A stretch of DNA of 64,000 nucleotides, taken from the NCBI RefSeq assembly GCF_019636155.1, contig NZ_JAHBYB010000005.1, positions 62,001-126,000 of the forward strand, read 5' to 3'. This DNA comes from Brevundimonas sp. (GTDB lineage: Bacteria; Pseudomonadota; Alphaproteobacteria; Caulobacterales; Caulobacteraceae). Shown piece by piece: positions 6,866 to 21,725 of the stretch (positions are counted from its first letter, which is position 1; each line of letters opens with the position of its first letter). The translations under genes and the position numbers were made by a program. The notes below the pieces were generated by a model. It saw only the letters and a list, made by a program, of their open reading frames with translations, was not told where the DNA came from and ran no database searches.

Positions 6866-7383
6866 AGGGTCTTACCTCGTCTGACGTGATCGCCATCGCG
6901 ACCGGTCTCGTCTCCCTCGCCGCCTTTGTCGTCGCGATGCTGAGCTGGATCACGGCGCACCGCGCTCAGCGACTGGCGGAGCGGCAGGAAGCCCGTCGCG
7001 CGCCCCGGCTGGATCTTCGCCTCATCAACTCCAAGGTTGCCGACATCGAAGGGAAGCGAACGTTCGTCATCCATCTCCAGATCGCCAACCCAACCGACAC
7101 AGCCAACAGCGTCGCGGCGCTCGAACTGTGCATCCGGCACCGCCGCGAGATTCCGTTGACCTTGTTGGCACCGGCGGTCCCCAATGCCGACGAGAGCATC
7201 CCGGTGCTCCAGATGCCGTTGCGCATTGACGCCCATCACACCGTCGAAGGTTGGGTGCGTTTTGCGGTCGCCGCCGACCTTCTGAAGGGTTCGACCATCG
7301 AAGGGTACGAGTTGGTCGCGACTGATACGCACCAGGAGAAGACGACGCTCGAAACCCAAGTGCTAAGCTGGAGCCTCCGATGA
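6862..7383 (+). CDS. Small membrane-anchored hypothetical protein
   Basis: A 173-residue protein with one N-terminal transmembrane helix (about residues 8-31, AIATGLVSLAAFVVAMLSWI), a short basic linker (HRAQRLAERQEARRAPR) and a soluble C-terminal domain that looks beta-rich (VIHLQIANPTDTANS and VEGWVRFAV). This layout, a single helix plus an immunoglobulin-like or C2-like soluble domain, is common in small proteins of unknown function. It overlaps the genes on both sides by 4 bases, so it is translationally coupled in the 6038-7970 operon. No family name is recognised; the membrane anchor may place the operon's products at the inner membrane. Confidence 0.55.
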   Translation: MKGLTSSDVIAIATGLVSLAAFVVAMLSWITAHRAQRLAERQEARRAPRLDLRLINSKVADIEGKRTFVIHLQIANPTDTANSVAALELCIRHRREIPLTLLAPAVPNADESIPVLQMPLRIDAHHTVEGWVRFAVAADLLKGSTIEGYELVATDTHQEKTTLETQVLSWSLR

Positions 7384-7970
7384 TGGGAGCGTTCCGCAAA
7401 GCGATGATCGCCTTGAACCATAGTCATGAAAAGCTGATTGCGCCGATCGTCGCTGACGGATCGATAGCCACCGTGGGGGTCGGCGATGGTCGGATGTTTC
7501 CCCTGGTTATCCTCGACACCACAGAGCGCCCCGATATCGACGCGGTGATCGCAGCTCACGACCATGGGCCGCCGGGCGACGTCCGGGTCCAGTGGGGCAG
7601 GCTCCCGCACCGTGAGGAGACGGTGACCCTCATTCTGACCCTTCTTCGACCAGTAGAAGCGGTGGTGATGGTGGAGTTCGATCTAAACAAGAACCATGGG
7701 GTCATCGTTGAGCAGATCCTCCAGAACCGCGGTCTCTACGTGCAACCGGGTAGGCCGGGGGATCGTCTCAAGGATGATCCGCAGCGGCCGAAGATCATCG
7801 TCGAGGTGGCGGACACCGGTTTCAAGGCGACCTGGGACAGGCTGTTCCTCGCCCATACCGCTCTCATGCTGCGCCGAAGGGGAATGGGGCGGGGCGAGGC
7901 CAAGCGAGCGGCAAAGGAGGTGACCGGGACGATCAGGAAGATCGCATCGACGCGACCTTTCACCGCCTGA
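7380..7970 (+). CDS. Hypothetical protein, third gene of coupled operon
   Basis: A 196-residue soluble protein, starting at an ATG that overlaps the stop of the preceding gene. It has an N-terminal alpha/beta part (FPLVILDTTERPDIDAVI, VRVQWGRLP, VTLILTLLRPVEAVVMVEFD) and a basic helical C-terminus (RRRGMGRGEAKRAAKEV). No catalytic motif is recognised. Tight coupling to the membrane-anchored protein and the DUF5677-like protein suggests a three-component system of unknown function, possibly defensive given the neighbours on both sides. Confidence 0.55.
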   Translation: MMGAFRKAMIALNHSHEKLIAPIVADGSIATVGVGDGRMFPLVILDTTERPDIDAVIAAHDHGPPGDVRVQWGRLPHREETVTLILTLLRPVEAVVMVEFDLNKNHGVIVEQILQNRGLYVQPGRPGDRLKDDPQRPKIIVEVADTGFKATWDRLFLAHTALMLRRRGMGRGEAKRAAKEVTGTIRKIASTRPFTA

Positions 7971-8426
7971 AGACCGCAGTTCTGGATGCCCCGGCCGGGC
8001 GCCAGAATCTGCCGGTCGGCGCCACAGTTTCTCTCCTCCTGCGGTGATCGGCGTCCGGCGCTAGGCTTTAGGATATGAGCTGCCCAATGCAATCGACGCC
8101 ATGGGGACTGAGGGCTGCGGATCGGGGCTCCTAGCCGCACTGCTTGTGTCCCGACAGCGGGGATTTGGTGATCACGGGCCCGTCTCACGCACCGCCGCTT
8201 GCAAACCCCGTCGCCATGATTCAAGCTTTGAGTGCGTCGTCTTCGGGCGGCGCCGAGGCGTGAGAACCTCGCTTGAGACGATCATTCTACATCTTCGCTC
8301 CGCGGCAGCGGTGTGGCTGGCGCGTATGTCCAGGCCTTCGGGCTAAAGGCGTCGGCGCATGCCTCAAGCATGGTCTCAACACCCGGTGCTTCGGCCGGGC
8401 TCGCCTCATCATCTGGAGGCGAGCCC
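7971..8426. other. Intergenic region upstream of lasso cluster
   Basis: About 456 bases between the three-gene operon and the ECF sigma gene. No open frame here has convincing protein character, and no RNA gene or repeat was recognised. It must contain the promoter of the sigma/FecR/receptor/isopeptidase operon. A GGAGG ribosome-binding site at about 8415-8419 belongs to the GTG start at 8427. Confidence 0.4.
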
Positions 8427-8927
8427 GTGTCGGATCGAACTGGAGGTGTGGGAGACAAGGAGGCCGATCACGGCCTTCACGATCTCTATCGCACCTATTC
8501 CGGTTGGCTTACGGCGCGGCTGAGGCGGCGCTTCGGCGACGAGACCGAAGACCTGGTGCAGGAGGCCTGGATCAGGGCCGCACCATACAGTCGCAAGGGC
8601 CTGATCGAACACCCGAAGGCGTTGCTTCTGAAGATCGTCGACAACCTGGTCATCGACCGGGCCAGGCGGCAAGGGCCTGCCCCCCTGGCCTCCAGCGACA
8701 AGCTGGATCCGAATCCGCTGGTGGATCCCGCGTCGCAGATCGACATGGTCCTTCTCAAGCAGATCATTCTGACGATGCCGCCCCGCCTGCGCGACGTGTT
8801 CGTCTTGAGCCGTTTCGCGCATCTGGAGTATCAAGAGATAGGCGAGCGGCTGAACATCCCCGTGACCACGGTCCAATGGCGGATGATCAAGGCGCTCGAG
8901 TACTGCGCAGCCCAGTTGCGGCTGTAG
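8427..8927 (+). CDS. ECF sigma factor, FecI type
   Basis: A 166-residue extracytoplasmic-function sigma factor. Region 2 is seen at about residues 18-80 (HDLYRTYSGWLTARLRRRF, DETEDLVQEAWIRA, KIVDNLVIDRARRQ), and region 4 at about 110-160 (LPPRLRDVF-like MPPRLRDVFVLSRF and YQEIGERLNIPVTTVQWR). The GTG at 8427 is chosen as the start because GGAGG lies 8 bases upstream and the length then fits the family; a start at 8313 would add a low-complexity tail. The FecR gene follows after 3 bases, and an STN-bearing TonB receptor comes next. This is the arrangement of FecI/FecR/FecA signalling, in which an outer-membrane ligand activates the sigma factor. The natural ligand here is presumably the lasso peptide or a molecule it carries. 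Confidence 0.88.
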   Translation: MSDRTGGVGDKEADHGLHDLYRTYSGWLTARLRRRFGDETEDLVQEAWIRAAPYSRKGLIEHPKALLLKIVDNLVIDRARRQGPAPLASSDKLDPNPLVDPASQIDMVLLKQIILTMPPRLRDVFVLSRFAHLEYQEIGERLNIPVTTVQWRMIKALEYCAAQLRL

Positions 8928-8930
8928 CCG

Positions 8931-9926
8931 ATGGGGAACGCCATGAGCGACCCGCAGAGCGCGACGGGCGTTGCGGACCGTGAAGCGGCCGAGTGGCATG
9001 TCCGGCTCGGGGAACGCCCCGTGTCCGCAGACACGCTCCATGCCTTCAAGATTTGGCGCGAGACTGCTGGCAACGCAGAGGCCTATCGCAGGGTCGAGCG
9101 ACTTTGGCGAAGCACGGGATCCCTCTCATCGGATGGCGATATCCAGAACCTGACACAAGCCACGCTGCGGACCTCGCGGTCGGGGACGAAACGCGCCTGG
9201 CCGCGACGCTTCTTCCCGGCCGTTGCGGTCCTCGTCCCCGTGGCTGCCGTGGCTCTGGCGCTGGTCCTCTGGTTGCCCTCGCGAGGCCTTTACGAGACAG
9301 AGATCGGTGGTCAGCGGGTCGTCGCGCTCGACGACGGAACACAGGTCAGGCTGGATACGGACACACGGATACGGGTCCGCTTCGCCTCGGGCGAACGTCG
9401 TATCGTGCTGGAACAGGGCCAAGCGCTGTTCACCGTGGCGCATGACGCCGCGCGGCCTTTCCGCGTGGAAGCCGGCGCGACGGAGGTGACGGCCCTCGGC
9501 ACCGTCTTCGATGTCCGGCGCGAAACCACGGGCGCGCGTGTGACCCTCGTCGAGGGATCGGTCGCGGTCACCGATGTCCAGGCCGAGACCCGCAACTGGC
9601 GGCTGGCGGCGGGACAGCAGGTACAAACCGCAGGCCGTGATCCTGCGCCGGTCGCAGTCGACGCGATCCTCGAGACGAGTTGGACCCAGGGTCACCTCGT
9701 TTTCAAGGGCACGCCGCTTCGCGAAGCCGTCGCCGAGGTCAATCGCTACCTGCCGGACAAGATCGTTCTGGCCGCCGGCCCCGCATCAGAGGTCGCGGTC
9801 AACGGAACCTTCGCCACGGGCGACCGTGACGCCTTCGTGGCGGCCGTCTCGGATCTCTTCGATCTGAGCGCCCAGCCGCAGGCCGACGGCGGCGTTCGCC
9901 TCACCGCGCGATCCGTCGGCGGATAA
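8931..9926 (+). CDS. FecR-type anti-sigma/signal transducer
   Basis: A 331-residue inner-membrane regulator. An N-terminal cytoplasmic domain (DREAAEWHVRL, AFKIWRETAGNAEAYRRVE, typical of DUF4880) binds the sigma factor. One transmembrane helix lies at about residues 95-115 (FFPAVAVLVPVAAVALALVL). The periplasmic FecR domain follows (VVALDDGTQVRLDTDTRIRV, ALGTVFDVRRE, VTLVEGSVAVTD). A C-terminal STN-like domain (GTPLREAVAEVNRYL to the end) is where FecR proteins contact the receptor's signalling domain. The start may be ATG 8931 or ATG 8943. It is coupled to the sigma gene upstream and lies 82 bases before the receptor gene. Confidence 0.88.
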   Translation: MGNAMSDPQSATGVADREAAEWHVRLGERPVSADTLHAFKIWRETAGNAEAYRRVERLWRSTGSLSSDGDIQNLTQATLRTSRSGTKRAWPRRFFPAVAVLVPVAAVALALVLWLPSRGLYETEIGGQRVVALDDGTQVRLDTDTRIRVRFASGERRIVLEQGQALFTVAHDAARPFRVEAGATEVTALGTVFDVRRETTGARVTLVEGSVAVTDVQAETRNWRLAAGQQVQTAGRDPAPVAVDAILETSWTQGHLVFKGTPLREAVAEVNRYLPDKIVLAAGPASEVAVNGTFATGDRDAFVAAVSDLFDLSAQPQADGGVRLTARSVGG

Positions 9927-10008
9927 AAATTTCGGGTCCCCACTCAGATCAGGTGACGCCCCATCGTCTCCTGTTCGACGCGCCCTTGCGTCGGAGGGGA
10001 CTGACCAC

Positions 10009-12960
10009 ATGACTATCTGCACCCGAAGCCTGCTCGCCGGCGTCGCGCTCGTGCCTATCGCCGCCGTGGCCTTCGCCACTGACGCACAGGCCCAGACGGC
10101 CCGCGAGTTCAACATTTCCGGCGGTTCGTTGGACGCGGCGCTGATCGCCTATGCCAGGCAGGCGGATGTGCAGATGCTCTACACCGCCGACCTCGTCGCG
10201 GGCCTTCGCACGCCTGGCCTGAGCGGCCGCCATGAGCCGGACGCGGCGCTCGATCGCCTGCTCGCGGGGAGCGGTGTCGTCTGGTCTCGCAGTCGGCCTG
10301 GGGTGATCGTCCTGCGTCGTGCCGGCAGCCAGCAGGCAGCGATGGCAGACGCGACGCAGATCGACGACATCATCGTCACGGGGTCTCTTCTGCGCGGCCC
10401 GGGAGAGTCGCCGTCGCCCGTGACCGTGATCTCACGGGCAGACCTAGACCGGCGCGGAGACGCCACGGTCGCCGACGCCCTCGTCCGGCTGCCCCAGTCC
10501 TATTCGGGGAACGCGACACCCAACAGTCTGCTGCTGGGCGCGGACTCGCTCGGGAGCAACACCTCGACGGCCATGGGTGTGAACCTGCGAGGCCTCGGGG
10601 CGGACGCGACCCTCGTTCTGGTCAACGGACGACGTCTTGCAGGGACCGGGATGAAGGGGGAGTTCGCCGATGTCTCGGCCATTCCCGGCGGCGCGGTGGA
10701 GCGCGTCGACGTGCTGCTCGACGGTGCCTCCGCTCTGTACGGATCGGACGCCGTGGCCGGGGTGGTGAACGTCATCCTTCGACGGAGCTACGAGGGCCAG
10801 GAAACGCGATTGCGAGCGTCCGCGGCCGAAGGCGGCGGCGAAGACCTTCTGGCGTCCCATCTTTTCGGCACGCGGTGGGAGACCGGCTCGGCGCTCCTGT
10901 CCTACGAATATCAGCACCAGTCGGCGCTGAACTCGGCGGACCGCGACTACACCGCCACGGGCGATCTAAGGCCCTGGGGCGGCACGGATCGCCGCAGCTT
11001 CTACGGGCCGCCCGGCAGCATCGTCGTATTCGACGCGTCTCGCGGCGCCTATCGCAGCACCTATGCGATCCGGCCCGGTCCCGACGGCACGGCGCGCACG
11101 CCGTCGGACTTCGAGGCGGGCGGCGCCAACCTCGGCAATCGTCGGGCCGACGTCGACATCCTCCCGCTCCAGGAGCGCCACAGCGCCTATGCGAGCGTCC
11201 GCCAAGAATTCGGTTCGCACATCGAAGTGTCCGCCGACGCCCGCTTCAGCCGGCGGACGTTCGAGTACGCCAACCTCGCGCCCGTGAGCATTCTGACGGT
11301 CGGACGCAGCAACCCCTTCTTCGTCTCTCCGACCGGTTCGGCTTCCCATCTGATCGCCTACAACTTCATCGGCGACCTCGGTCCGACCGAGAGTTACGGA
11401 ATGTCGCGCAGCCTCGGCGGGACCGCCGGGATCGAGATCGCGCTTCCGAGGGACTGGACGCTGGAAGCCTACGGCGCCTTCGCCGAGGAGCTCAGCGAAG
11501 GCGGGACGAACAACCAGCTCAACAGCACCTTCCTCGCCGAAGCGCTGGGCAACGCCGTCGACAATCCGGCGACCTCTTACAGCGCCCTCCGGGACGGATA
11601 CTTCAATCCCTTCGGGTCGGGCGGGGCCAACGGCGACGCGGTTCTGGATTTCATCTCGCAGGGCTACACCTGGTCCCGCTACCGCAGCCGTATCAGCTCC
11701 GCCAATCTGATGCTGGACGGCTCGCTCCTGAGCCTGCCGGGCGGCGAGCTCCGGATTGCGGTCGGCGCTTCGTTCCGGCGCGAGGAGTTCAACCGTCGCA
11801 GCCAGAACTTCGCTTCGGGCCTAGCGCCGGTCATCACCATCGGCGACCCCCAGGTCCGCGACATCGGCGCCGTCTTCATGGAAGTGCGAGCGCCGCTGGT
11901 GGGCGAAGGCAATGCGCTGCCCGGGATCAAGCGTCTGGAGCTCACCCTGGCCGGGCGTGCGGAGGACTATGACGACGTCGGCACGACCTCCAATCCCAAG
12001 GTCGGCCTGATTTGGCAGCCCTCGGACCCGTTTACGGTTCGCGCCAGCTGGGGGACGTCCTTTCGCGCCCCCGCCCTCACCGAAGTGTTCGATCGGGTCC
12101 AGCTCGGTCCCCTGACGGTGTCGGACTCCGGGGTCAGCCGCGTGGCGATCCTGCAGTCCGGCGGCAACACCGACCTCGAACCGGAAACGGCCGAAAGCCT
12201 CACCTTCGGAGTGGAATGGGCGCCCCGGCCCGGCATGCGCTTCAGCGCGGGCTATTTCGACATCCGCTTCGAGAACAAGATCGGTCGACCGGCGCTGGAG
12301 AACATCACCAGCATCCTCGTCGATCCGAGCCTGTCGCCCTTCGTCACCCGTCTCACGCCGGGGAATGCGGCCGATCTGGCCCGCGTCCAGGCCTTCCTCG
12401 CCGACCCGCGTTTCGTCTCGCCGACCCTCTATCCGGCCTCGTCCTACTCGGTGATCCTCGACGGCCGATGGGCCAACACCGGCGAACTGAACGTCGAAGG
12501 CATCGATCTGGCGGGCAGCTACGATTTCGACGTCGGCGACAACAGCTTCGGCCTCTCCCTGTCAGCCTCCTACCTCCTCGATTACAGCCGTCGGGTGACC
12601 CCGGTGGCCGTTCGCGAGGACGTTCTCGGGCTGGTCGGCTTCCCCGTCGATCTCCGCGCCCAGGCCGCAGCGACCTGGACGCGCGGGGACTGGTCGACGC
12701 GGATCGGCGTCAACCATGCCTCCGATTACCGCGACGCGGCGGGGCGGACCATCGACGCCTTCACGACCGCCGATCTTCAGCTGCGCTGGGCGGGGGGCGG
12801 GACCGGATTGGCCGAGGGCGTCGAGGTCGCCCTGACGATCCAGAACGTCTTCGACGCGAATCCGCCGTTCTACGACTCCCCTCAGGGCTTCGGCTTCGAC
12901 CCGGGGCAGGCGGGTCCGCTTGGCCGGGTCGCGGCATTCCAGCTCATCAAGCGCTGGTAG
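10009..12960 (+). CDS. TonB-dependent outer-membrane receptor with STN signalling domain
   Basis: A 983-residue receptor. It has a signal peptide (residues 1 to about 29, ending ATDAQAQ) and then an STN domain at about 33-105 (EFNISGGSLDAALIAYARQA, RLLAGSGVVW). The TonB box/plug region follows (DDIIVTGSLLRGPGESPSPV, VADALVRLPQ, NLRGLGADATLVLVNGRRL, IERVDVL-like AVERVDVLLDGASALYGSDA). The rest is a 22-strand-type barrel ending in an aromatic residue (QLIKRW), as expected for outer-membrane proteins. In isopeptidase-type lasso clusters such receptors are thought to import the lasso peptide, since these clusters lack an ABC exporter; this is established by context in related clusters and inferred here. 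The STN domain couples it to the FecR/sigma pair just upstream. The isopeptidase gene follows 6 bases later. Confidence 0.9.
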   Translation: MTICTRSLLAGVALVPIAAVAFATDAQAQTAREFNISGGSLDAALIAYARQADVQMLYTADLVAGLRTPGLSGRHEPDAALDRLLAGSGVVWSRSRPGVIVLRRAGSQQAAMADATQIDDIIVTGSLLRGPGESPSPVTVISRADLDRRGDATVADALVRLPQSYSGNATPNSLLLGADSLGSNTSTAMGVNLRGLGADATLVLVNGRRLAGTGMKGEFADVSAIPGGAVERVDVLLDGASALYGSDAVAGVVNVILRRSYEGQETRLRASAAEGGGEDLLASHLFGTRWETGSALLSYEYQHQSALNSADRDYTATGDLRPWGGTDRRSFYGPPGSIVVFDASRGAYRSTYAIRPGPDGTARTPSDFEAGGANLGNRRADVDILPLQERHSAYASVRQEFGSHIEVSADARFSRRTFEYANLAPVSILTVGRSNPFFVSPTGSASHLIAYNFIGDLGPTESYGMSRSLGGTAGIEIALPRDWTLEAYGAFAEELSEGGTNNQLNSTFLAEALGNAVDNPATSYSALRDGYFNPFGSGGANGDAVLDFISQGYTWSRYRSRISSANLMLDGSLLSLPGGELRIAVGASFRREEFNRRSQNFASGLAPVITIGDPQVRDIGAVFMEVRAPLVGEGNALPGIKRLELTLAGRAEDYDDVGTTSNPKVGLIWQPSDPFTVRASWGTSFRAPALTEVFDRVQLGPLTVSDSGVSRVAILQSGGNTDLEPETAESLTFGVEWAPRPGMRFSAGYFDIRFENKIGRPALENITSILVDPSLSPFVTRLTPGNAADLARVQAFLADPRFVSPTLYPASSYSVILDGRWANTGELNVEGIDLAGSYDFDVGDNSFGLSLSASYLLDYSRRVTPVAVREDVLGLVGFPVDLRAQAAATWTRGDWSTRIGVNHASDYRDAAGRTIDAFTTADLQLRWAGGGTGLAEGVEVALTIQNVFDANPPFYDSPQGFGFDPGQAGPLGRVAAFQLIKRW

Positions 12961-12966
12961 GACGCC

Positions 12967-15570
12967 ATGTCACAAGCCGCTTCGAGCGGACGCCAGAGGG
13001 CGTCCGCGGGACGCCGTGCGCGCTCGCGCGTCCTCGTGGCCGCCTCGGCCTTCGCCCTGATGTCGGGCGCGGGTTGGGGCGCCGCCGCGCAGGTCCCGCA
13101 AAACGCTCTGACGGGCGCTGACGCCGCCACCGGGTCCCGCTCGCTCGTGATACACGGTCGTCCATACCGAACGGACGACATGCTCGCGGCGGAGTCCTTC
13201 GGCAACGCCACCATCGATCCGACGGGGCGGTGGGCGGTGTTCGAACAACGCGCGCCTTACGACCAGGCGACGTCGTTCGAGTTCGGACTTCGCAATCCGT
13301 GGACGGTGAGCCGCCTGAGAGTGGTGGATCTCGCCTCGGACCGGCCCGCTGAGAACCTGCTGCGGCCCGAGGAGAGGGAGGGCCACGTCCTTGGACCCTG
13401 GTCGCCGTCTGGGCGCAGACTCCTGATCTTCCGCCTCAGAGATCACCGATGGCAAGCCGGGGTCATCGAGATGGCGGATCGCACGGTCCGCTGGTTTCCC
13501 CTGTCGCCCGAGCTCTCTGTCTTCGGGGAGGCGGCGCAGTGGCGTTCCGACGATGAGCTCGTGCTGCTGGTGAGACCCGACGGATCGTTGCCGCAATGGC
13601 TGGCCAGCGGCGGGCGAGGCCGACGGGCGCTTGAGGCGCGCTGGCGTGCCACGGACCTCGGTGGACCGGCGCAACGAACCACCCTCGGCAGCGGCGCCTT
13701 CGCCGAGGACATGCCCCGGCCTCCCCAGAACGAGGCGATCAGACTCGATGTTCGTTCCGGCATCGCCACCCCGCTTGCCGCGGGCTGGTTCTACGACCTC
13801 GAGCTCTCCCCGGACGGAGATCACCTGGCGCTGGTCGAGACCACCACAGCGGCGACATTCGATCCGACAACAGCGTTCGAGCCGCAGGCCATCGATCGAG
13901 AGCGAAGGCTTCGGGTCGCCGACCTGCGGACGGGCGCCGTGACCTCGCCGCTGGGCGAGGCCGATGTCGCGCCGAGCCTGCTGACCTGGTCACCGGCCTC
14001 GGACCGCCTGCTGGTGTGGGCGCGCGGCGCCGAAGGATGGGAGGCCGGTGACCTTCTCGGCGTCGACCCGGACGGTGAAGCCGCGCAGCGCTACGATCTC
14101 GACGGCCTCAGGCCCTACACCGGCGGCGGGGTGGCTGCATTCAACAGCGTCTATGCGGACTGGCTGGGCGACCGGCCTGTCCTCTTCGCCCACGCCCCGA
14201 CGGGCGAACGTAACGACTGGCACCGGCTCGGACGCGAGGGCGCCGTCAACCTGACGGCGGCGCTCGGTCCGCCGTCCGTCGATATCGGGGCCATCGATGG
14301 GGAGCGGCTGTTGCTGGTCGCGGGAGGCCGCCCCTGGGCCGTGACCGTCTCCGGCGAAGCCGTGCCGATGGTCGCTCCACCCGGCGTCGTCACCGGCTTC
14401 GACGGCGCGGGCTATCTGGAGTCGCAGCGACGCCAGCGGAACTCTCCACCCCGGCGGGGCTGGATGGCGGTACGCCTGTCCAGTGGGGCGATCGTCCGCC
14501 CGGACCTCGATCCTGACGTGACAGCGACGGGCGACGCCATCGTCTCCGGCGTCTACGCCGGCGCCGACGGCGTCATCGTGCGCACCGTGAACAACGGGGT
14601 CCAGACCTTGCGCCTTCAGCAGCCGGGTCGGCCTGACCGGACGATGTCGACGATCAACGACTGGATGGGAGAGATCGACTTCCCCGAGCCCGAACGGGTC
14701 CGCCATCGGGGGGCGGACGGCGTAGAGCGGATCAGTTGGCTCTATCGCCCCCGGCAGTGGCGAGGGGAGAAGACGCCTCTGGTCGTTCTCTCCTATCCAG
14801 GCGGCCCTGCGGCCGCGCCGTCGGAGCCCGCCGCGCTGAACGCCTGGGCCAACCCCCAGCTTGTCGTCTCCGGCGGATATGCGGTGCTGATCCCGATCTT
14901 GCCCCTCGACCGGCAGAAGGAGCCTGCGGAGGACTACGCCGAGGACGTCCTGGCGGTGGTCGACGTCGCCCTCGCCCAGTACCCGGATCTGGACCCGGAC
15001 CGCGTCGCGCACTGGGGACACAGTTTCGGCGGCTATGTCGGGTTGGTCGCCGCCACGCAGACGGACCGGTTCAAGGCCATCATCTCCGTTGCGGGCCTGT
15101 CTGATCTTGCGACCGCCTGGGGCGAGTTCTCACCCGCCAACCGGGACAATCCGGAGTTCGGACTCTCCCTACGTCAGCGCATCGGTTGGGCCGAGGAAAG
15201 CCAGGGGCGAATGCGCGCGCCGCCCTGGACCGCGCCGGACCGCTATGTCCGGAACAGCCCCCTGTTCGCCGCAAACCGGATCTCGGCGCCGGTACTCCTC
15301 GTTCACGGTGACCGCGATCTTCTGCCGAGCACCCAGTCCGAGATCATGTTCTCGGCGCTCTGGCGGCAGAACAAGGATGTGCGGCTTCTCACCTACTGGG
15401 GTGAAGGCCATCACCTCTGGAGCCCGGACAATATCCGGGATCTCTACGCGGAGATCCTGGCCTTCCTCGACCGCACCCTCGGCTCGGGCGAAGCCCCGCC
15501 GGTCCTCAGACCCCAGCCCCGATCGCCTCCCAGCGCCGGACCCAGCTCTCCGTCACGGCCGCCATCGTGA
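12967..15570 (+). CDS. Lasso peptide isopeptidase, S9 prolyl oligopeptidase family
   Basis: An 867-residue secreted serine hydrolase of the AtxE type. A basic N-terminus and hydrophobic stretch (VLVAASAFALMSGAGWGAAA) form a signal peptide of about 41 residues. An N-terminal beta-propeller follows, then a C-terminal alpha/beta-hydrolase domain. The nucleophile is Ser686 in GHSFGGYVG, the acid is probably Asp784 in HGDRDLLPS, and the base is His815 or His816 in GEGHHLW. Family enzymes cut the isopeptide bond of the cognate lasso peptide and linearise it. The gene sits directly behind the receptor, so import followed by linearisation is the expected pathway. Its last 65 bases overlap, tail to tail, the cyclase gene on the other strand; the proline/serine-rich C-terminal tail is the overlapping part. 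Confidence 0.9.
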   Translation: MSQAASSGRQRASAGRRARSRVLVAASAFALMSGAGWGAAAQVPQNALTGADAATGSRSLVIHGRPYRTDDMLAAESFGNATIDPTGRWAVFEQRAPYDQATSFEFGLRNPWTVSRLRVVDLASDRPAENLLRPEEREGHVLGPWSPSGRRLLIFRLRDHRWQAGVIEMADRTVRWFPLSPELSVFGEAAQWRSDDELVLLVRPDGSLPQWLASGGRGRRALEARWRATDLGGPAQRTTLGSGAFAEDMPRPPQNEAIRLDVRSGIATPLAAGWFYDLELSPDGDHLALVETTTAATFDPTTAFEPQAIDRERRLRVADLRTGAVTSPLGEADVAPSLLTWSPASDRLLVWARGAEGWEAGDLLGVDPDGEAAQRYDLDGLRPYTGGGVAAFNSVYADWLGDRPVLFAHAPTGERNDWHRLGREGAVNLTAALGPPSVDIGAIDGERLLLVAGGRPWAVTVSGEAVPMVAPPGVVTGFDGAGYLESQRRQRNSPPRRGWMAVRLSSGAIVRPDLDPDVTATGDAIVSGVYAGADGVIVRTVNNGVQTLRLQQPGRPDRTMSTINDWMGEIDFPEPERVRHRGADGVERISWLYRPRQWRGEKTPLVVLSYPGGPAAAPSEPAALNAWANPQLVVSGGYAVLIPILPLDRQKEPAEDYAEDVLAVVDVALAQYPDLDPDRVAHWGHSFGGYVGLVAATQTDRFKAIISVAGLSDLATAWGEFSPANRDNPEFGLSLRQRIGWAEESQGRMRAPPWTAPDRYVRNSPLFAANRISAPVLLVHGDRDLLPSTQSEIMFSALWRQNKDVRLLTYWGEGHHLWSPDNIRDLYAEILAFLDRTLGSGEAPPVLRPQPRSPPSAGPSSPSRPPS

Positions 15571-17266
15571 AGTCCGGTACGCTGCCTTTCCAGAGCAGAC
15601 GGTCAGGGTCAAGGAGGGCTTCCGTGCGACTGCGGTCGATAAGGCCGCGCGCGGCGAGGCGCCCCTCCAGCAGGTGGTCTCGCAGAAAAGGGATGCTCGC
15701 CGCCGCCTGACGGCCGAAGTAGGCGGTCATCTCGCCCTTGGATCGCCTATGCAGGATTTCGGGCGGCAGCCTGTCGGCGAAGGCGGCGCGGGCCAGCCTG
15801 CGGTCGGCCCGGCCGTCGTCGGTGAGGAGGGGGACGGACAATCCGAGCGCCAGTTCGACGACGGGCTGGGCGAGAAGCGGATGGATCAGGTCGGCAACCT
15901 CCGTCCGGCGGCACTGGCCTTGATAGGCCAGGCCCGCCGCCACGGACTCGATCTGCAGACGTTTGGCCGGCGGGATCGTCTCCAGTCCGCGCAGCCACGG
16001 ATGCAGAGCCGCTTCTGCATCGTGCGCAATGCTCTCCGGATTGAAGATCGACAGCATCCGCGCCGACCGGTCGAGCGGAGCACGTCGCGGCGTGCTCAGG
16101 GCGGTACGCAGAAGGGACCAGGTCGATCGGCGTGTCCAGCGCGCCAGTTGTGGCAATGCGGGGCTGAAGACGGCGCCGAGGCCGCGCTCGCGAAGGACGT
16201 CGGTGAAAATTTCCGGGACTCCCATCTGGAAGAAGACCCCGTCGCCGCCCTTCCCGGTCAGGAGGGCGTCGACGCCGGCCTCCCGGCAGGCGTCCGCGAC
16301 TGCCGTGTCGAATGAGTAGTCCCTGCCGTTCACCCCGGTTCTGGGACCTCGGGCGGTGACGTCGAAGCCTTCGGTCGTCATCGGCCTGATCGCCCGCTGG
16401 ACGCAGTGCGGTTCGAAGCCGAGACGATCCCCGAGGGCTCGAACGAACCGGCGCTCGTCGCCCTCCGCGAACGGACCGAACATGTTGAACCACAGGTGCG
16501 GCGTTGCCCCGCCGGCCTGAAAGGCGCCGGCGACGATTGCGGAATCAAGCCCGCCGGACACTTCGATCCCCGGCCGCACGATGACGTCGGCGAAGCCGGC
16601 CAAGCAGCTGTCGATCCGCTCCCGCAGTCGCGCTGCGGCCTCGCGCGGATCAGAGGTGACCGAGCCGCTGAAGTCGGCTGGGCGCCAGAGCGGGGTGCTT
16701 CGTCGGGCGTTGAGGTCGGTCAGGTCGCCCGCCTCGGCGACCCGGATTCCGACCAGCGGGCTGGCCGCGGTCGCATTGATGGGGTCGCGGAGAATACCGC
16801 CCACGACGTCCCAATCGAGCTGAACGGGCGGCGCGGCCAGTTTCATAAGCCAGTCGGAAAGTTCTGACGTGACGACCTGGATCCCTTCGCGTCTCCACGC
16901 CGCACACTCGTGGGCGCCGGATGGATCGCGAAGGATCTGACGGACCTGGCCTCGCGGCGTCCGGAACATCGCGATGTACCGTCCCCAGTATCGCCGGATC
17001 AGGGCGCGGGCGCGGTCGGCGTCTTCGCCGTGCGTCGCGATAGGGGTTCGGTCGCCGTCGAGGGCATCGAACAGGTCGCCGAGGACGAGCAGATGCTCAC
17101 CGGCGGGATGGTGCATTGCCGGGGGCCTCGGACCTCGCGTGCCGAGCCACGCCTGCTCCATGACCTGGACCGGAGCGAACCCCCGCGCCTGAGCCTCGGC
17201 CACAAGACTTTCTGCGAGGTCGAGATTGCTGGTGTCCGACCAGGCGAGATGCAGAAAATGCCCCAC
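15506..17266 (-). CDS. Lasso peptide cyclase, asparagine-synthetase-like (C protein)
   Basis: A 586-residue ATP-dependent macrolactam synthetase. The PP-loop EVSGGLDSAIV (SGGLDS at residues 237-242) marks the ATP-binding domain that adenylates the acceptor Glu/Asp side chain of the core peptide. The N-terminal 200 residues are the degenerate glutaminase-like domain typical of lasso C proteins, with no N-terminal Cys. A second conserved stretch, DALLTGKGGDGVF, fits the asparagine synthetase fold. The GTG at 17266 is preferred: it begins 1 base after the stop of the B gene, so the two are translationally coupled, while upstream in-frame sequence is the shadow of B. Its product should close the ring between Gly1 and Glu9 of both precursors. 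Confidence 0.9.
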   Translation of the reverse strand: MGHFLHLAWSDTSNLDLAESLVAEAQARGFAPVQVMEQAWLGTRGPRPPAMHHPAGEHLLVLGDLFDALDGDRTPIATHGEDADRARALIRRYWGRYIAMFRTPRGQVRQILRDPSGAHECAAWRREGIQVVTSELSDWLMKLAAPPVQLDWDVVGGILRDPINATAASPLVGIRVAEAGDLTDLNARRSTPLWRPADFSGSVTSDPREAAARLRERIDSCLAGFADVIVRPGIEVSGGLDSAIVAGAFQAGGATPHLWFNMFGPFAEGDERRFVRALGDRLGFEPHCVQRAIRPMTTEGFDVTARGPRTGVNGRDYSFDTAVADACREAGVDALLTGKGGDGVFFQMGVPEIFTDVLRERGLGAVFSPALPQLARWTRRSTWSLLRTALSTPRRAPLDRSARMLSIFNPESIAHDAEAALHPWLRGLETIPPAKRLQIESVAAGLAYQGQCRRTEVADLIHPLLAQPVVELALGLSVPLLTDDGRADRRLARAAFADRLPPEILHRRSKGEMTAYFGRQAAASIPFLRDHLLEGRLAARGLIDRSRTEALLDPDRLLWKGSVPDFTMAAVTESWVRRWEAIGAGV

Positions 17267-17267
17267 C

Positions 17268-17954
17268 TCAGACCACCATGATCGGGGTGTAGACGGCGAC
17301 CCGATCCGGCTCGTCGTCCAGCACCGCGTCGCCGATCTGCAGCCAGCAGTGGGCGGAGAACGGCCAGGTGCGAACCCCGAACACCCATCGCACGTCTCCG
17401 CCCGCGTCACGGATCAAGGTTCGCAGGAGGTGCGCCCTGTAGAGGCAGGCGCCCTGTCCCGGCGCCCACGGCAGGAGGCGCACGAAAACAGCCGTCAGAC
17501 GGGCGACCTCCTCTTCGGACAGGCTCGAGGAGGGGGAGTGCCGGCGGTGCGTGGCGAGCAGTTTCGCGAGGGATCGGGATTCGAATTTCCGTCCCTCGCG
17601 CCACCAGGACCACCAGAACCTTGTGGTCGCGACCACATCCATCGCGGGCGACAGCGGCAAGGGCAGGGCTCGGGTCGGCGCCGGCGGCGCGACGGCCCGG
17701 CTATCGCCCGCAGGGCCGAGAAAGCCGCCGTCCCGAAGTTGCTCCAGAACGGGCTCGGGGGCGACGATGCGGTCGCCACAGACCTGTATCACCGCACCGG
17801 CGCCGGGCAGGCAGCTGTAGGCGTCCGTACGCTCATCGAGCACAATGACGTCCTCATCGACGACGGCGAAATGCAGATGCTCCGAAAGGTGGGCGACAGC
17901 GCCGTCCGGCCCAGAGGCGAGAGGTGCAGCGGGAGCGAAAACCTGGTTCTCCAT
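17268..17954 (-). CDS. Lasso peptide fused RRE-leader peptidase (B protein)
   Basis: A 228-residue fusion. Residues about 8-85 form a PqqD-like RiPP recognition element (HLHFAVVDEDVIVLDERTD, YSCLPGAGAV) that binds the precursor leader. Residues about 110-228 form a transglutaminase-like cysteine protease with Cys170 (GQGACLYRA), His202 (FSAHCWLQ) and Asp213 or 214 (DAVLDD) as the likely triad. It removes the leader after the conserved Thr at -2, as in other proteobacterial lasso systems. ATG 17954 (MENQVF) is chosen because it begins the RRE; the frame runs further upstream but there overlaps the precursor genes. No strong Shine-Dalgarno is visible. It lies 59 bases downstream of precursor gene 1, across a hairpin. 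Confidence 0.9.
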   Translation of the reverse strand: MENQVFAPAAPLASGPDGAVAHLSEHLHFAVVDEDVIVLDERTDAYSCLPGAGAVIQVCGDRIVAPEPVLEQLRDGGFLGPAGDSRAVAPPAPTRALPLPLSPAMDVVATTRFWWSWWREGRKFESRSLAKLLATHRRHSPSSSLSEEEVARLTAVFVRLLPWAPGQGACLYRAHLLRTLIRDAGGDVRWVFGVRTWPFSAHCWLQIGDAVLDDEPDRVAVYTPIMVV

Positions 17955-17974
17955 GGGGCACGCACGCGGCGGCT

Positions 17975-18006
17975 GGGGACGAGCGCCGCGAGAGGCGTCC
18001 GTCCCC
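17975..18006 (-). terminator. Hairpin between precursor 1 and B gene
   Basis: On the minus strand GGGGACG (18006-18000) pairs with CGTCCCC (17981-17975), with an inner CGCC/GGCG stem and a short loop. No T-run follows, so it looks like an attenuator or RNA-stabilising hairpin rather than a full terminator. It would set the excess of precursor over processing enzymes. Confidence 0.55.
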
Positions 18007-18013
18007 GAGGCCG

Positions 18014-18133
18014 TCAGGCCCCGCCGTCGTACGGCATTTCCTCGTGTTCGAGGGGCGGGCCGATCACCGCGCCCCTCGTCAGAACAGTGACGGGACCGAG
18101 GTCGATCAGTCGGATCTGAGCGATGCCAGTCAT
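18014..18133 (-). CDS. Lasso peptide precursor 1 (39 aa)
   Basis: A 39-codon gene missed by length cut-offs. ATG 18133 has TGGAGG 5 bases upstream (TGGAGGCTCTC). The leader is residues 1-20 and ends in Leu-Thr-Arg, with the conserved Thr at -2. The predicted core is GAVIGPPLEHEEMPYDGGA (19 residues): Gly1 amine joined to the Glu9 side chain gives a 9-residue ring GAVIGPPLE, followed by a 10-residue loop/tail containing Tyr15. The ring pattern GA-x-x-G-x-x-L-E recalls caulosegnin III of Caulobacter segnis as I remember it. Without Cys, it would be a class II lasso peptide. It lies upstream of, and on the same strand as, the B and C genes. Core start and ring residue are inferred from the family rule, not measured. 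Confidence 0.88.
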   Translation of the reverse strand: MTGIAQIRLIDLGPVTVLTRGAVIGPPLEHEEMPYDGGA

Positions 18134-18201
18134 GAGAGCCTCCAGGTTGTGAGGCCGCAGGATTGCGACAGCCTATGGAGCCGCTCCGAAGCCGGCGGTC
18201 G

Positions 18202-18224
18202 CAATCTATATCTGTCGTGTATTT
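18202..18224 (-). promoter_or_regulatory. Conserved promoter block of precursor 1
   Basis: A 23-bp block, identical to the one at 18531-18553, ends 69 bases from the precursor start in both cases. Read on the minus strand its core is ACACGACAGATATAGATTG. TATAGATT partly fits the Caulobacter housekeeping -10 (GCTANAWC). The -35 is less clear in this copy (CTCAAAT against TTGAAAT in the other). Confidence 0.55.
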
Positions 18225-18308
18225 GAGCCTTGTCGATCGGACAGGAGCGAATGCACAAACGTCGCCGCGACGGCTGTCGGGCGACCGGTCATCCTCAATG
18301 TGGGGCAA

Positions 18309-18334
18309 GACGAGCGCCGCGAACGACGCTCGTC
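18309..18334 (-). terminator. Hairpin downstream of precursor 2
   Basis: GACGAGCG (18309-18316) and CGCTCGTC (18327-18334) are perfect inverted repeats, forming an 8-bp stem directly after the precursor 2 stop. It is the counterpart of the hairpin after precursor 1. It lacks a clear T-run, so it may limit rather than stop transcription into precursor 1. Confidence 0.5.
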
Positions 18335-18342
18335 CCGGGCGA

Positions 18343-18462
18343 TCAGGCCACGCCGTCGAACGGCGTCTCTTCGATCTCCAGCGGCGGCCCGACGATGGCG
18401 CCCCGGGTGAGGGCGGTGACGGGTCCGAAGCCGATCAGTCGGATCTGAACGGTGCTGGTCAT
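18343..18462 (-). CDS. Lasso peptide precursor 2 (39 aa)
   Basis: A second 39-codon precursor gene. ATG 18462 has TGGAGG 5 bases upstream (TGGAGGCTACC). The leader (residues 1-20) differs from precursor 1 at few positions and also ends in Leu-Thr-Arg with Thr at -2. The predicted core is GAIVGPPLEIEETPFDGVA (19 residues), giving a Gly1-Glu9 ring GAIVGPPLE. Compared with precursor 1, ring residues 3 and 4 are swapped Val/Ile, and the tail has Ile10, Thr13, Phe15 and Val18 in place of His, Met, Tyr and Gly. It has its own copy of the promoter block and its own downstream hairpin, so it can be expressed independently. It shares the single set of B and C enzymes. Confidence 0.88.
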   Translation of the reverse strand: MTSTVQIRLIGFGPVTALTRGAIVGPPLEIEETPFDGVA

Positions 18463-18530
18463 GGTAGCCTCCATTCGCAAGTCGCCGCGGATTGCGGCAG
18501 GTCATGGAGCGCCCGCGGTGACCCCAGCGG

Positions 18531-18553
18531 CAATCTATATCTGTCGTGTATTT
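18531..18553 (-). promoter_or_regulatory. Conserved promoter block of precursor 2
   Basis: Identical 23-bp block to 18202-18224, at the same 69-base distance from its start codon. Here TTGAAAT immediately overlaps the block and, with a 10-base spacer, precedes TATAGATT, which resembles a Caulobacter sigma-73 promoter (TTGAC and GCTANAWC spaced 10-14). Confidence 0.6.
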
Positions 18554-18566
18554 CAACTGCTGCGGC

Positions 18567-19055
18567 TCAGACCTCATCTTCCGGCGGTTTGCCCGCCAGA
18601 CGGTCGCGGCCTGCGTCCAACCAGGATTCTGTCTCTTCGCTCTTGGCGCGGTTTTCCTCTTCCAGCTTGTGGAAGGTCTCGGTGAAGGCCTCGATCAGGG
18701 CGCGGGGATCGAGCGTCAAAAGCCGGTCTCCCATCTTCCGGACGAACTCGCCCAGGGCGATGAGGAAGATCAGCATGAGCTTGCTGTCGGCCGTCTGACG
18801 CGCGAACTCGATCGAGCCGAGCGAAGGGCCGAGCAAGAGCGACCACGGGTCGCAGTTCGTCGCGACGGCGAACCGGTGAACGTAGTCGAGGTTCACCCGG
18901 CCAGCGCCGGCTTCAAAGTATTCGTAGGTGCGAAGCGGCAGGTTCATGGCGGTCGCCACCTGCTGGGCGGTCATGTTTCGGGCACGCCGCACCGTCCGCG
19001 CCGCCAGACCGATCAGCCGTGCATCACTCAACTTTTCTGGTGGATCGGAAAGCAT
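18567..19055 (-). CDS. XRE-family transcriptional regulator
   Basis: A 162-residue protein with an N-terminal helix-turn-helix (about residues 12-65: LIGLAARTVRRARNMTAQQV, MNLPLRTYEYFEAGAGRVN). A helical C-terminal part (LIFLIALGEFVRKMGDRLL, FTETFHKLEEENRAKSEETE) may dimerise or sense a partner. It lies upstream of and in the same direction as the precursor genes, ending 14 bases before the precursor 2 promoter block, so it may read into or regulate the precursors. It is divergent from the GntR gene at 19302. A GATTCGAC inverted repeat just ahead of its start may be its operator. Confidence 0.75.
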   Translation of the reverse strand: MLSDPPEKLSDARLIGLAARTVRRARNMTAQQVATAMNLPLRTYEYFEAGAGRVNLDYVHRFAVATNCDPWSLLLGPSLGSIEFARQTADSKLMLIFLIALGEFVRKMGDRLLTLDPRALIEAFTETFHKLEEENRAKSEETESWLDAGRDRLAGKPPEDEV

Positions 19056-19059
19056 AGGC

Positions 19060-19106
19060 GATTCGACCTTTCACCACTGAAGGTGCTGTGTTGGGTGTGT
19101 CGAATC
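19060..19106. promoter_or_regulatory. GATTCGAC/GTCGAATC inverted repeat, candidate operator
   Basis: GATTCGAC (19060-19067) and its exact reverse complement GTCGAATC (19099-19106) flank 31 bases in the divergent region between the XRE gene (start 19055) and the GntR gene (start 19302). A regulator binding both half-sites could loop the DNA and repress the XRE gene. The assignment rests on symmetry and position only. Confidence 0.4.
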
Positions 19107-19301
19107 AATGCAGGCGTGTGCGACTTTTTTGAATGGTTCCAGAGCGAGACGAAGAACCCGCAAGAAATCGGCGGGGCGCGCGCCAGAGCATGGCGGCCTG
19201 TCCGAAGAAGATTTTCGCAGACGAACTCGCCGGTCTGGGGAACGATGCTTGGGTGGACGATCAGGGGGCGGACCGGGGTCCGAGCAGATCGGAATCTGAA
19301 C

Positions 19302-19952
19302 ATGGCGCGTAATCGCGACCCGTTCACCCAGGCGCTGTCGTCTTTGCGTGAGCGTATTCATTCGGGAGCCCTGGCCGGCGGGTCGCCGGTCATTGTTCAG
19401 GACGAGGCCCGGCGGCTGCGCCTGTCGACCACGCCGATCCGAGAGGCTCTTGCTCGGCTGAGCGGAGAAGGACTGGTCGAGCGTGCGTCGACCGGCGGTT
19501 ATGTCACCCTGCGGCTGGACGCCACCGCAGCCCGTGACCGTTGGGCGATGCATGGCCACTACGTCCGCATCGCCGTCGAGGTGAACCTGCGCGCCCTCGG
19601 AGCCGTGCGTCCGCCGGCGCCCGCTTACGAACACGGTCGTCCCATAGCGGCCGTGAACCGGCTGTTCGCGACCATCGTCTGCAGCGCCGGCAATCAGGCC
19701 TTGTGGGACGGATTTCAGAAGGTGAGCGGACAGCTCGATCTGGTGCGCCGCCATGAGGCGACCCTGTTTGACGATCTCTGTGACGAGGCGATAGGGCTCT
19801 ATACCGCCTACAATGAGGAGGCCGCGCCCGCGTTCGCTGCGACCGTCGGGCGCTACCATGACCGGCGCATCGGAGCGGCTGGCGCACTGGCCGCTCTGGT
19901 CTTCGCCGGCGTCGGGCCTCGGGAAGAGGTGGCGCGAAGTGGGACGGAGTGA
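19302..19952 (+). CDS. GntR-family transcriptional regulator 1
   Basis: A 216-residue regulator with an N-terminal winged helix-turn-helix (TQALSSLRERI, LSTTPIREALARLSGEGLVE at about residues 38-58) and a helical FCD-like effector domain that looks short. ATG 19302 (MARNRDPFTQAL) is taken as start; the open frame runs further upstream but that part is a shadow of the XRE gene. It converges on a second, related GntR gene with only 5 bases between their stops. GntR-type genes are, as I recall, often found beside isopeptidase-type lasso clusters, which supports counting it as part of this cluster. Confidence 0.75.
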   Translation: MARNRDPFTQALSSLRERIHSGALAGGSPVIVQDEARRLRLSTTPIREALARLSGEGLVERASTGGYVTLRLDATAARDRWAMHGHYVRIAVEVNLRALGAVRPPAPAYEHGRPIAAVNRLFATIVCSAGNQALWDGFQKVSGQLDLVRRHEATLFDDLCDEAIGLYTAYNEEAAPAFAATVGRYHDRRIGAAGALAALVFAGVGPREEVARSGTE

Positions 19953-19957
19953 GGGGA

Positions 19958-20560
19958 TCAGGCGGCCTCGATCACCAGGATCGTTGTGCGTGAGCAGCGG
20001 CGCTCGTGATAGGATTCCAGCAGACCCAGGAGCGCCGGGATCCGCCCGTCGACGATCACCTCCACCATGGTCCTTACGGTCGCGCCGTCAGTTTCTTCAT
20101 GGATGCGCTCGGCCTTGAGAACGGCCTTGAGCCGGTCGACGACACGTTGATGGGCCAGCACAAGCGCGGCGTTGGTCGACTGGTTGATGATCGCGTCGAA
20201 AAGGGCCTGAACGCCGTCGAGCGGATCGACCGCAACGGCCGCCTTGCGCAAAGGTGTGAGCCCGCGGGGGTAGAGGGTCAGCGCGGCGTGGAGATAGGCG
20301 AGCTGGAGTTCGAACAGGTCGATGATCTCCGCCGGGCTCAGCGACGGGTAGAAGTAGCCGCGTCCGCGTCTGCGCTCGATGAGCCCTTGTCCCGCGAGAC
20401 AGGCCAGGGCTTCCCGGACCGGCGTGGCGCTCAATCCCACCTCCGCCGCCAGCTCCGTCACCACGATCGGCTCGCCCGGAACAAACCGGCCCGCCTCGGC
20501 GAACCGCTTTAGAGCACCCAGAGCCGCTCCATAGGGGTCTCGTGGTTCGGAAGTCTGCAT
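19958..20560 (-). CDS. GntR-family transcriptional regulator 2
   Basis: A 200-residue GntR-type regulator. The winged helix lies at about residues 14-65 (FVPGEPIVVTELAAEVGLSA, VREALACLAGQGLIERRRGR). A helical effector domain follows (LQLAYLHAALTLYP, LVLAHQRVVDRLKAVLKAER). It faces the first GntR gene tail to tail and resembles it in layout, suggesting an old inverted duplication or two paired regulators. The gene has ATG 20560 as start and an AT-rich region upstream. Its likely targets are the adjacent lasso cluster or itself; this is inference. Confidence 0.75.
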   Translation of the reverse strand: MQTSEPRDPYGAALGALKRFAEAGRFVPGEPIVVTELAAEVGLSATPVREALACLAGQGLIERRRGRGYFYPSLSPAEIIDLFELQLAYLHAALTLYPRGLTPLRKAAVAVDPLDGVQALFDAIINQSTNAALVLAHQRVVDRLKAVLKAERIHEETDGATVRTMVEVIVDGRIPALLGLLESYHERRCSRTTILVIEAA

Positions 20561-20882
20561 GACGCCCTCGACTGAACAATGGGCGGACCGGGAAACGGGG
20601 GGAGGCCGATCCGATTACACAAGTTAGTGCAGATATATTTGATGCAATGCAAGGTTATATTTTGACCGCCAATAGATTGCGTGTGACCCGCAACTTTTTT
20701 GCGGACGATCACCGAACTTCTTGCGTATTGGGAGCTTCGGAGGGCGTCGTTCTACTCCGGTCGTGTGATAGTCTGTCCAGAGACAGCAACTGGGGGGCGA
20801 AGTCGGTCCTGTTCCGCGATATCTGGCGTTCGCGCGGTCGGCCCAATGCCGACCCCCGCCCATTCAAGAGGACCGCGCCCGC
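20561..20882. promoter_or_regulatory. AT-rich intergenic promoter region
   Basis: About 322 bases between the divergent GntR 2 and zinc-ribbon HEPN genes. The stretch 20617-20700 is the most AT-rich part of the neighbourhood. It contains GCAGATATATTTGATG on the plus strand, which resembles the CAGATATAGATTG core of the lasso precursor promoters, and a small CCGCAA/TTGCGG hairpin at 20688-20704. No gene is seen. Confidence 0.4.
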
Positions 20883-21725
20883 ATGACCCAACGTTTCGAG
20901 ACGCAGATCCAGTTCACATGCCCGGATTGCCACGCCCTGGCGGTCACGAGCGCGGAGGTGCCCGAGCCGGACTGGAGCGCAGCCGAAAGCATGTCGGACC
21001 TGAACTCCGAGGGCGAAACCGAGGTCGAATGCCCCCACTGCGAAACCGTCTTTGAGGCCTATGTCGTGAACAGCGCAGGCAGTTGCGAGGTCAGGCTCAA
21101 CGCCCATCCTGAGACGGCGGTTTCGGCGGATGTCGCCTTCTACTCTCCCGAGGAGGATTGGTCCGACTACGCTCTCCCGGAAAACCCGCTCTCAATCTGG
21201 GCGGAGTCGTTCGAGCAGGCGCAGGCCTATCTCGATGCCCACGGCTCGGACGACGGCGGCGCCCTGATCAATCGGATGGTCTTCTCTCAGCACGTTGCGG
21301 CTCTCGAAGCCTTCCTCGGCGACACGCTTCTCAAGGAAGTGCTGGGCGACGAGAAGCGTCTGGGGCGGCTTCTCGCCGGCGACAAGGAACTGGCGAAGGA
21401 AAGGTTCACCCTGGCGGAGATCCAGGAAAATCCCGGCCTGATCCGAGACAGGGTCGGGGCCTATCTGGCCGACATCCGCTACCACAACCTCGCGAAGGTC
21501 GACACGCTGTACCGGATCGCTCTGGAGGTCGAACTCCTCAAGGAGCAAACACAGAGGGAGAAGCTGTTTGTCGCGATTCAGCATCGTCACGACTGCGTCC
21601 ACCGAAACGGCCGCGACAAGAACAACGAGAAGCTGACGGTCTTCACCAAAGCCTATGTGACCGAAACGGCTGAACTCTTTCGGGCCCTGATCGAGAGGGT
21701 CGACCTGGCGCTCTCGCCCTTTTGA
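20883..21725 (+). CDS. Zinc-ribbon HEPN-domain protein
   Basis: A 280-residue protein. Two Cys pairs, C13-x2-C16 (FTCPDC) and C50-x2-C53 (VECPHC), form an N-terminal zinc ribbon. The C-terminal half is helical and carries the R-x4-H motif of catalytic HEPN RNases at about residues 235-240 (RHDCVHRNGRD), preceded by YRIALEVELLKEQTQREKL. HEPN proteins of this type cut RNA in abortive infection or toxin systems, and the zinc ribbon may recognise nucleic acid. It stands alone with its own promoter region and lies beside NACHT and GHKL defence-type genes. Substrate and trigger are unknown. Confidence 0.7.
   Translation: MTQRFETQIQFTCPDCHALAVTSAEVPEPDWSAAESMSDLNSEGETEVECPHCETVFEAYVVNSAGSCEVRLNAHPETAVSADVAFYSPEEDWSDYALPENPLSIWAESFEQAQAYLDAHGSDDGGALINRMVFSQHVAALEAFLGDTLLKEVLGDEKRLGRLLAGDKELAKERFTLAEIQENPGLIRDRVGAYLADIRYHNLAKVDTLYRIALEVELLKEQTQREKLFVAIQHRHDCVHRNGRDKNNEKLTVFTKAYVTETAELFRALIERVDLALSPF

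Follow-up and report, generated by a model that had tools for sequence, protein, structure and literature searches.

Does the 64,000-nucleotide (nt) stretch of Brevundimonas sp. DNA analysed here (contig NZ_JAHBYB010000005.1; hereafter the window) hold a complete lasso peptide cluster, and what might control its precursor genes? Positions 8313-20560 very probably form a transporter-less, isopeptidase-type lasso peptide cluster of the caulosegnin type with two precursors, A1 and A2. Each precursor gene is preceded by a leader element of about 94 nt, made up of an AATAYAC-N5-ATATAG block at about -91 and a covarying hairpin from about -36. Clusters on the caulosegnin side of the cyclase and S9 peptidase clades, including the one studied, are called window-type below, and the loci and genomes compared carry L- and G-numbers. 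The leader element and window-type precursor genes correspond almost one to one, which offers a handle on the regulation of lasso peptides; the role of the isopeptidase-type members is called enigmatic in the available excerpt of PMC9266682.

Both precursor genes have 39 codons and lie on the reverse strand. A1 (18014-18133) consists of the leader peptide MTGIAQIRLIDLGPVTVLTR and the core GAVIGPPLEHEEMPYDGGA, and A2 (18343-18462) of the leader peptide MTSTVQIRLIGFGPVTALTR and the core GAIVGPPLEIEETPFDGVA. Thr at -2, Gly1 and Glu9 can be read directly in both, as the first-pass annotation had claimed. Both leader peptides end in Leu-Thr-Arg (LTR), and both precursors have the small residue 1 and the Asp or Glu at positions 7-9 by which lasso precursors are recognised. 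The genes are tandem copies 329 bp apart with 76% identity over 136 nt, and further repeats extend over 65 nt upstream (75%) and 28 nt downstream (82%). In the relative G008, both genes are identical to those of the window at the DNA level. In Brevundimonas huaxiensis (L095), the A2 core is unchanged, with four synonymous codon differences and one non-synonymous difference in the leader peptide, and A1 shows nine synonymous and six non-synonymous codon differences. The similarity of the copies and the codon differences from B. huaxiensis indicate that A1 and A2 are conserved as proteins.

The leader elements end at the start codons, at 18131-18224 for A1 (block 18203-18223, hairpin 18154-18169) and at 18460-18553 for A2 (block 18532-18552, hairpin 18483-18499), both on the reverse strand; they score 59.9 and 74.0 bits with R1, a covariance model built from 23 leader elements. 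Direct ATATA repeats about 11 bp apart are found within the element. In 21 of 33 aligned precursor starts, a segment 86-96 nt upstream of the start codon agrees with the 24-nt block of the window at 15 or more positions, and the IUPAC block pattern occurs twice in the window, both times at a precursor, with zero occurrences expected. Hairpins were counted on 27 of the 33 starts, since six second genes without the block were dropped. The mean best-hairpin score was 15.9 (n=27) against 10.8 after shuffling (maximum of 200 shuffles, 12.8), and the best hairpin begins 32-41 nt upstream of the start codon in 26 of the 27. A first promoter search with a 24-mer and three mismatches had been abandoned, with matches only in G000, G008 and G048 among 101 genomes; the wider element emerged from the aligned relatives.

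How specific is the element? At E<=0.05, R1 gave 52 matches, spread over 44 of the 60 sources, and 51 of the matches end exactly at a start codon, the exception being in L106. Fifty of the 51 open a recognisable lasso precursor and the remaining one, in L054, looks decayed. Matches outside the training set, some of them near-copies, number 29 of the 52, with 28 at a start codon. The L054 match (L054:13778-13871) stands before a reading frame that begins like a lasso precursor and then loses its core, a possible decayed precursor. Across 61 whole genomes, R1 matched 24 times, in 12 genomes and always at the precursor start of a lasso locus, and in the whole genome that contains the window (2.79 Mb) it gave exactly three matches at E<=1, each directly before a lasso precursor. 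No R1 match was found in the window-type loci L055, L073 and L080, and three of 15 AtxE2-type loci were matched, each weakly (E 0.011-0.049). Without the model, a hairpin scoring at least 14 and beginning from -30 to -42 precedes 21 of 24 AtxE2-type precursors, counting one per locus, as well as 26 of 27 window-type precursors and 37 of 178 control genes. With the loop required to contain AT[TC]C, a pattern chosen post hoc, the counts are 9/24, 12/27 and 0/178. A regular expression joining hairpin, Shine-Dalgarno sequence and start codon matched 296 times in 3.83 Mb (both strands), with 43 rows precursor-like by a loose pattern that counted alternative starts twice and admitted false rows in L093, L136, L141 and one in L142; the hairpin expression alone is therefore not specific.

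A rival explanation, to which we give somewhat less than an even chance, is that the leader is a DNA element only, an operator or promoter for an XRE, GntR or sigma protein, and that the hairpin is a palindromic protein-binding site rather than an RNA structure. The best RNA fold of the A1 leader element lacks the hairpin, the A2 leader element folds no better than shuffles (z -0.22), and the ATATA direct repeats with their spacing of about 11 bp resemble a protein site. Against this stand the constant distance from hairpin to start codon and the stem letters, which change on both sides yet stay paired: in the R1-fitted alignment A6, 94.3% of cells are paired and 27 two-sided changes are seen against 7.5 in shuffled alignments (0/500 reached this). 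Neither a sigma-70 promoter nor an intrinsic terminator was found at the precursors, Rfam 15 gave no match at E<=1 in 15000-21000, and nothing relevant on lasso leader elements was found in the open-licence literature searched. We regard it as an even call that alphaproteobacterial lasso clusters of the isopeptidase type have an undescribed conserved cis-regulatory leader at their precursor genes. It would comprise a hairpin in the 5' untranslated region, with a covarying stem and a loop that is often AATCC or AATTCC, beginning some 30-42 nt ahead of the start codon in both deep lineages, and the promoter-like block at about -91 in the Brevundimonas/Caulobacter lineage; together with a 3' hairpin it would set precursor dosage relative to the B protein and cyclase C, and it would be a marker precise enough to locate precursor genes in DNA that lacks annotation.

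The 3' hairpins belong to repeat D4 on the reverse strand. The one directly behind A1, before the B gene (17975-18006), folds with -30.2 kcal/mol over 55 nt (z -1.27; 17 of 200 shuffles as good), and the one directly behind A2 (18306-18337) with -23.9 kcal/mol over 51 nt (z -2.42; 4 of 200). Each precursor gene may be a self-contained expression unit, flanked by the promoter-like block and 5' hairpin on one side and by the 3' hairpin on the other. The bracketing hairpins may keep the precursor mRNA short and stable and reduce read-through into B and C, and because each precursor has its own leader and 3' hairpin, its mRNA could outnumber that of B and C.

A second notable part of the cluster is the S9 peptidase (12967-15570, forward strand). 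The first-pass annotation had named it an isopeptidase; it is an S9 peptidase (PF00326, 94.8 bits), but its kinship with AtxE2 is weakened, since it falls in another S9 clade and scores 45.8 bits on the AtxE2-family model NF033523 (cut-off 400), on which controls of the AtxE2 type score 798.6 (L118), 743.2 (L086) and 493 bits. Lasso-linked S9 enzymes split into two deep clades: the window-type clade has a support of 98 (25 rows) in one tree and 99 (22 rows) in a wider tree, separate from the AtxE2-type clade. All lasso-linked S9 enzymes part from generic ones with a support of 80 and 41, respectively, in unrooted trees whose generic rows were selected for resembling either the window S9 or L118. 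L193 and L194, fetched as generic, were counted as AtxE2-type in the wider tree because they match most of the L118 length (29% and 27%). Two independent recruitments of S9 enzymes were considered and are not shown by these trees, where the lasso-linked enzymes form one side of an unrooted branch.

Ser686 and His815 are invariant across all aligned S9 rows and Asp782/784 are present, and the predicted-structure model has the S9 fold (propeller plus alpha/beta-hydrolase) with a Ser-His-Asp/Glu triad. Triad and fold are common to all S9 enzymes and are therefore weak evidence for the AtxE2 family. The closest folds are an S9 carboxypeptidase and acyl-peptide hydrolases; AtxE2 is not among the 50 fold-search rows shown, which is no proof of a differing fold. 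A 24-member S9 profile that placed AtxE2 first among solved structures (8e-52) was set aside because it contained L086, an AtxE2-family member at 743 bits, and the deep L092. With a cleaner nine-member profile (A3), AtxE2 came 16th (2e-8), behind generic S9 enzymes, and a phmmer search with the single window S9 listed neither AtxE2 nor SpI-IsoP, even at E<=10. These solved isopeptidases are distant from the window-type clade, so that ring opening by window-type clusters is proposed by analogy. The window S9 is probably a lasso isopeptidase of a non-AtxE2 clade.

The maturation enzymes lie on the reverse strand, convergent with S9. Cyclase C (15506-17266, GTG start) has PF00733 (Asn_synthase, 79.2 bits, cut-off 21) and an SGGLDS motif. 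It scores 70.4 on the NCBIfam cyclase models (cut-off 300), which do not decide the matter because the L118 cyclase, from the benenodin producer species, also stays below the cut-off at 92.5. Window-type cyclases form one clade (25 rows, support 100) that includes L113 with its caulosegnin-like cores. By cyclase sequence, B. huaxiensis 090558 is the closest named relative, at 85% over the best segment. The B protein (17268-17954) had been called an RRE-protease fusion. Its B2 cysteine protease domain is borne out (NF033537, 72.5 bits, cut-off 33), with Cys170 and His202 invariant in 28 sequences and a predicted-structure model at a predicted local distance difference test (pLDDT) score of 90.3, but the N-terminal part, possibly an RRE, has no family match in Pfam or NCBIfam. 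The convergent reading frames of S9 and cyclase share their last 65 bp (15506-15570). Such an overlap is present in 33 of 39 other loci measured and spans 56-68 bp in 17 of these; the remaining overlaps vary widely, partly through fragments and frame breaks.

Upstream of S9 on the forward strand lie an extracytoplasmic function (ECF) sigma factor (8313-8927), FecR (8931-9926; PF04773, 79.6 bits, cut-off 24) and a TonB-dependent receptor with an STN signalling domain (10009-12960; STN, Plug and barrel all above cut-offs). The sigma gene is confirmed by the Sigma70_r2 and r4 models, above Pfam cut-offs; its GTG start is uncertain, and 8427, proposed earlier as the start, is a later in-frame GTG. 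Three additional regulators were found: an XRE-like protein (18567-19055, reverse strand; HTH_31 24.7 bits, below the Pfam cut-off of 27) that goes with window-type clusters, and a convergent pair of GntR-family proteins, one within 19323-19952 on the forward strand with an uncertain start (PF00392, 36.4 bits, cut-off 27) and one at 19958-20560 on the reverse strand (49.2 bits). Every gene named in the first-pass annotation is present. The transporter-less set it described also stands, as a scan of 17 window proteins from 5526 to 24376 matched no ABC exporter, and the layout agrees with the available excerpt of PMC9266682, which describes a near-constant architecture with GntR before the precursor and TonB and sigma/anti-sigma genes beyond the isopeptidase. 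That excerpt makes no mention of an XRE gene.

The same arrangement recurs in relatives. A cyclase match was found in 31 of 101 genomes, the genome of the window included. In a first set of 43 loci with a cyclase match (48 fetched), a convergent matching S9 gene lies within 2.5 kb in 39, including the AtxE2-family locus L086, accompanied by TonB (39), FecR (37), sigma (35), XRE (38), GntR (35) and B (40). In a second set, the best 50 of 65 named loci (the 15 weakest dropped; three are contigs already in the other set), the counts were S9 15, TonB 41, FecR 38, sigma 31, XRE 12, GntR 40 and B 48. A convergent matching S9 accompanies 46 of the 50 XRE-bearing loci. Two genomes hold apparently split clusters: in G011 the cyclase-precursor half (L059) and the S9-TonB-FecR-sigma half (L087) are on different contigs, and in G010 the halves L073 and L094 are about 25 kb apart. 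G013 (L086), of the same genus, contains two AtxE2-side lasso clusters and one of the window type; a single genus thus holds both lineages of cluster.

Several observations weigh against the reading as a caulosegnin-type lasso cluster. Besides the NF033523 score, a generic dipeptidyl-peptidase model gives a higher score for three relatives of the window S9 (L095, L063 and L048). L051, L059, L073 and L099 have cyclase and XRE without S9 nearby, so one half of the cluster can occur apart from the other. A fold search with the B model ranked the lasso RRE TbiB1 second, at an E of 0.16 that is no better than that of unrelated ribosomal chains, adding to the missing family match of the RRE half. 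Finally, both peptide products are known here from genes alone. The S9 enzyme might instead be a general peptidase of the exo- or dipeptidyl type, acting after import either to trim the tail or to degrade lasso peptide that is already linear or unthreaded. The family score, the rank of AtxE2 in the clean profile search and the closest folds would all agree with this, but we consider it unlikely given the fixed position of the gene beside lasso cyclases and its exchange with AtxE2-type enzymes between cluster lineages. L092 and L122 pair window-type S9 enzymes with AtxE2-side cyclases, which suggests that both S9 types do the same job. Less probable still is that the peptides are mainly antibacterial weapons, with S9 and receptor serving self-protection rather than scavenging or signalling. 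Linearisation could detoxify, and astexin-1 has narrow-spectrum activity according to the excerpted PMC9266682, which also describes other isopeptidase-type lasso peptides as lacking antimicrobial activity; moreover, the scanned proteins include no exporter.

For an isopeptidase-type cluster, the following pathway can be proposed. B would bind the leader peptides with their LTR ends and cut before Gly1, and C would link Gly1 with Glu9. The results would be two lasso peptides of 19 residues, with calculated [M+H]+ values of 1920.88 for A1 and 1892.96 for A2. After a presumed export, the STN-TonB receptor may bind or import external peptides and signal via FecR to the sigma factor. Judged from its signal-peptide-like N-terminal stretch, the S9 enzyme is probably periplasmic, and it would open the ring and linearise the peptides. 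The enzymes of isopeptidase-type clusters are described as cognate-specific in the available text of PMC9266682.

How new are the products? The first-pass annotation had suggested that the twin Pro6-Pro7 in the ring sets these products apart from described members. Uniqueness is not supported, since the core GSFVGPPEALNPTGREIQG of Caulobacter endophyticus (L113) has Pro6-Pro7 with a Glu8 ring. Adjacent prolines also occur at Pro5-Pro6 (L131 GDFGPPVE, L115 GDWGPPFE) and Pro2-Pro3 (L128 GPPIGGPD, L139 GPPGVGHD), the latter position being that of subterisin. In other relatives, Gly5-Pro6 precedes Tyr or Phe (e.g. DLLSGPYTE, DNLDGPFLE, AILMGPFTE), so Pro7 replaces an aromatic residue. The suggested novelty holds in part: five core fragments were not found in the open-licence literature and the A1 and A2 products are, as far as searched, undescribed there, but B. 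huaxiensis has an identical A2 core, which is therefore not unique to the studied genome. A second lasso cluster in the same genome, on contig C34 (L063), has Ala1 cores.

Tracing the leader element also exposed odd relatives. Single open reading frames with repeated leader-core units (...TR-core-...TR-core) hold three cores in L062 (=L101), L069 and L085 and two in L060, L061, L070, L072, L077 and L084. These are apparently multi-core lasso precursors, for which no precedent was found in the literature searched; an inner core would also have to be cleaved at its far end. Asp1 cores follow an LTR, LTQ or LTL end in 12 loci (L049, L051, L052, L053, L054, L056, L058, L059, L067, L096, L099 and L100), and L050 has a Leu1 core. 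Asp1 rings would be unusual, as the first residues named in the accessible part of PMC12670498 are Gly, Cys, Ser and Ala, with Asn reported as new.

Among known systems, the caulosegnin I-III cluster of Caulobacter segnis, reportedly described by Hegemann in 2013, is the nearest in type. L113, whose three cores resemble caulosegnins, is the nearest DNA among the loci compared. It shares with the window leader peptides ending in LTR or LTQ, Gly1 with Glu8 or Glu9, several precursors, the S9 and cyclase clades, XRE, GntR and the convergent TonB-FecR-sigma arm; its cores are different, whereas the window has two near-copies, each with its own leader element. The available part of PMC5067487 counts the caulosegnin I cluster among those bearing an isopeptidase. 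The window cluster adds two Glu9-ring lasso peptides that have probably not been made before; its S9 clade and leader element are the parts most worth specialist attention, and the twin prolines fail as a distinguishing mark. The astexin-2/-3 and benenodin-1 clusters (AtxE2/BenE), as described in the excerpt of PMC9266682, have the gene order and parts list of the window. Their stand-in L118 (Asticcacaulis benevestitus) differs in its AtxE2-family S9, another cyclase clade, the lack of an XRE match and a leader peptide of the LG...ET type. The sphingocin cluster, according to the accessible text of PMC11006600, is likewise transporter-less, with isopeptidase and TonB genes beside A-B-C, but has one precursor and is AtxE2-type; L140, which encodes the same 45-residue precursor as sphingocin, has a weak R1 match (22.4 bits, E 0.011).

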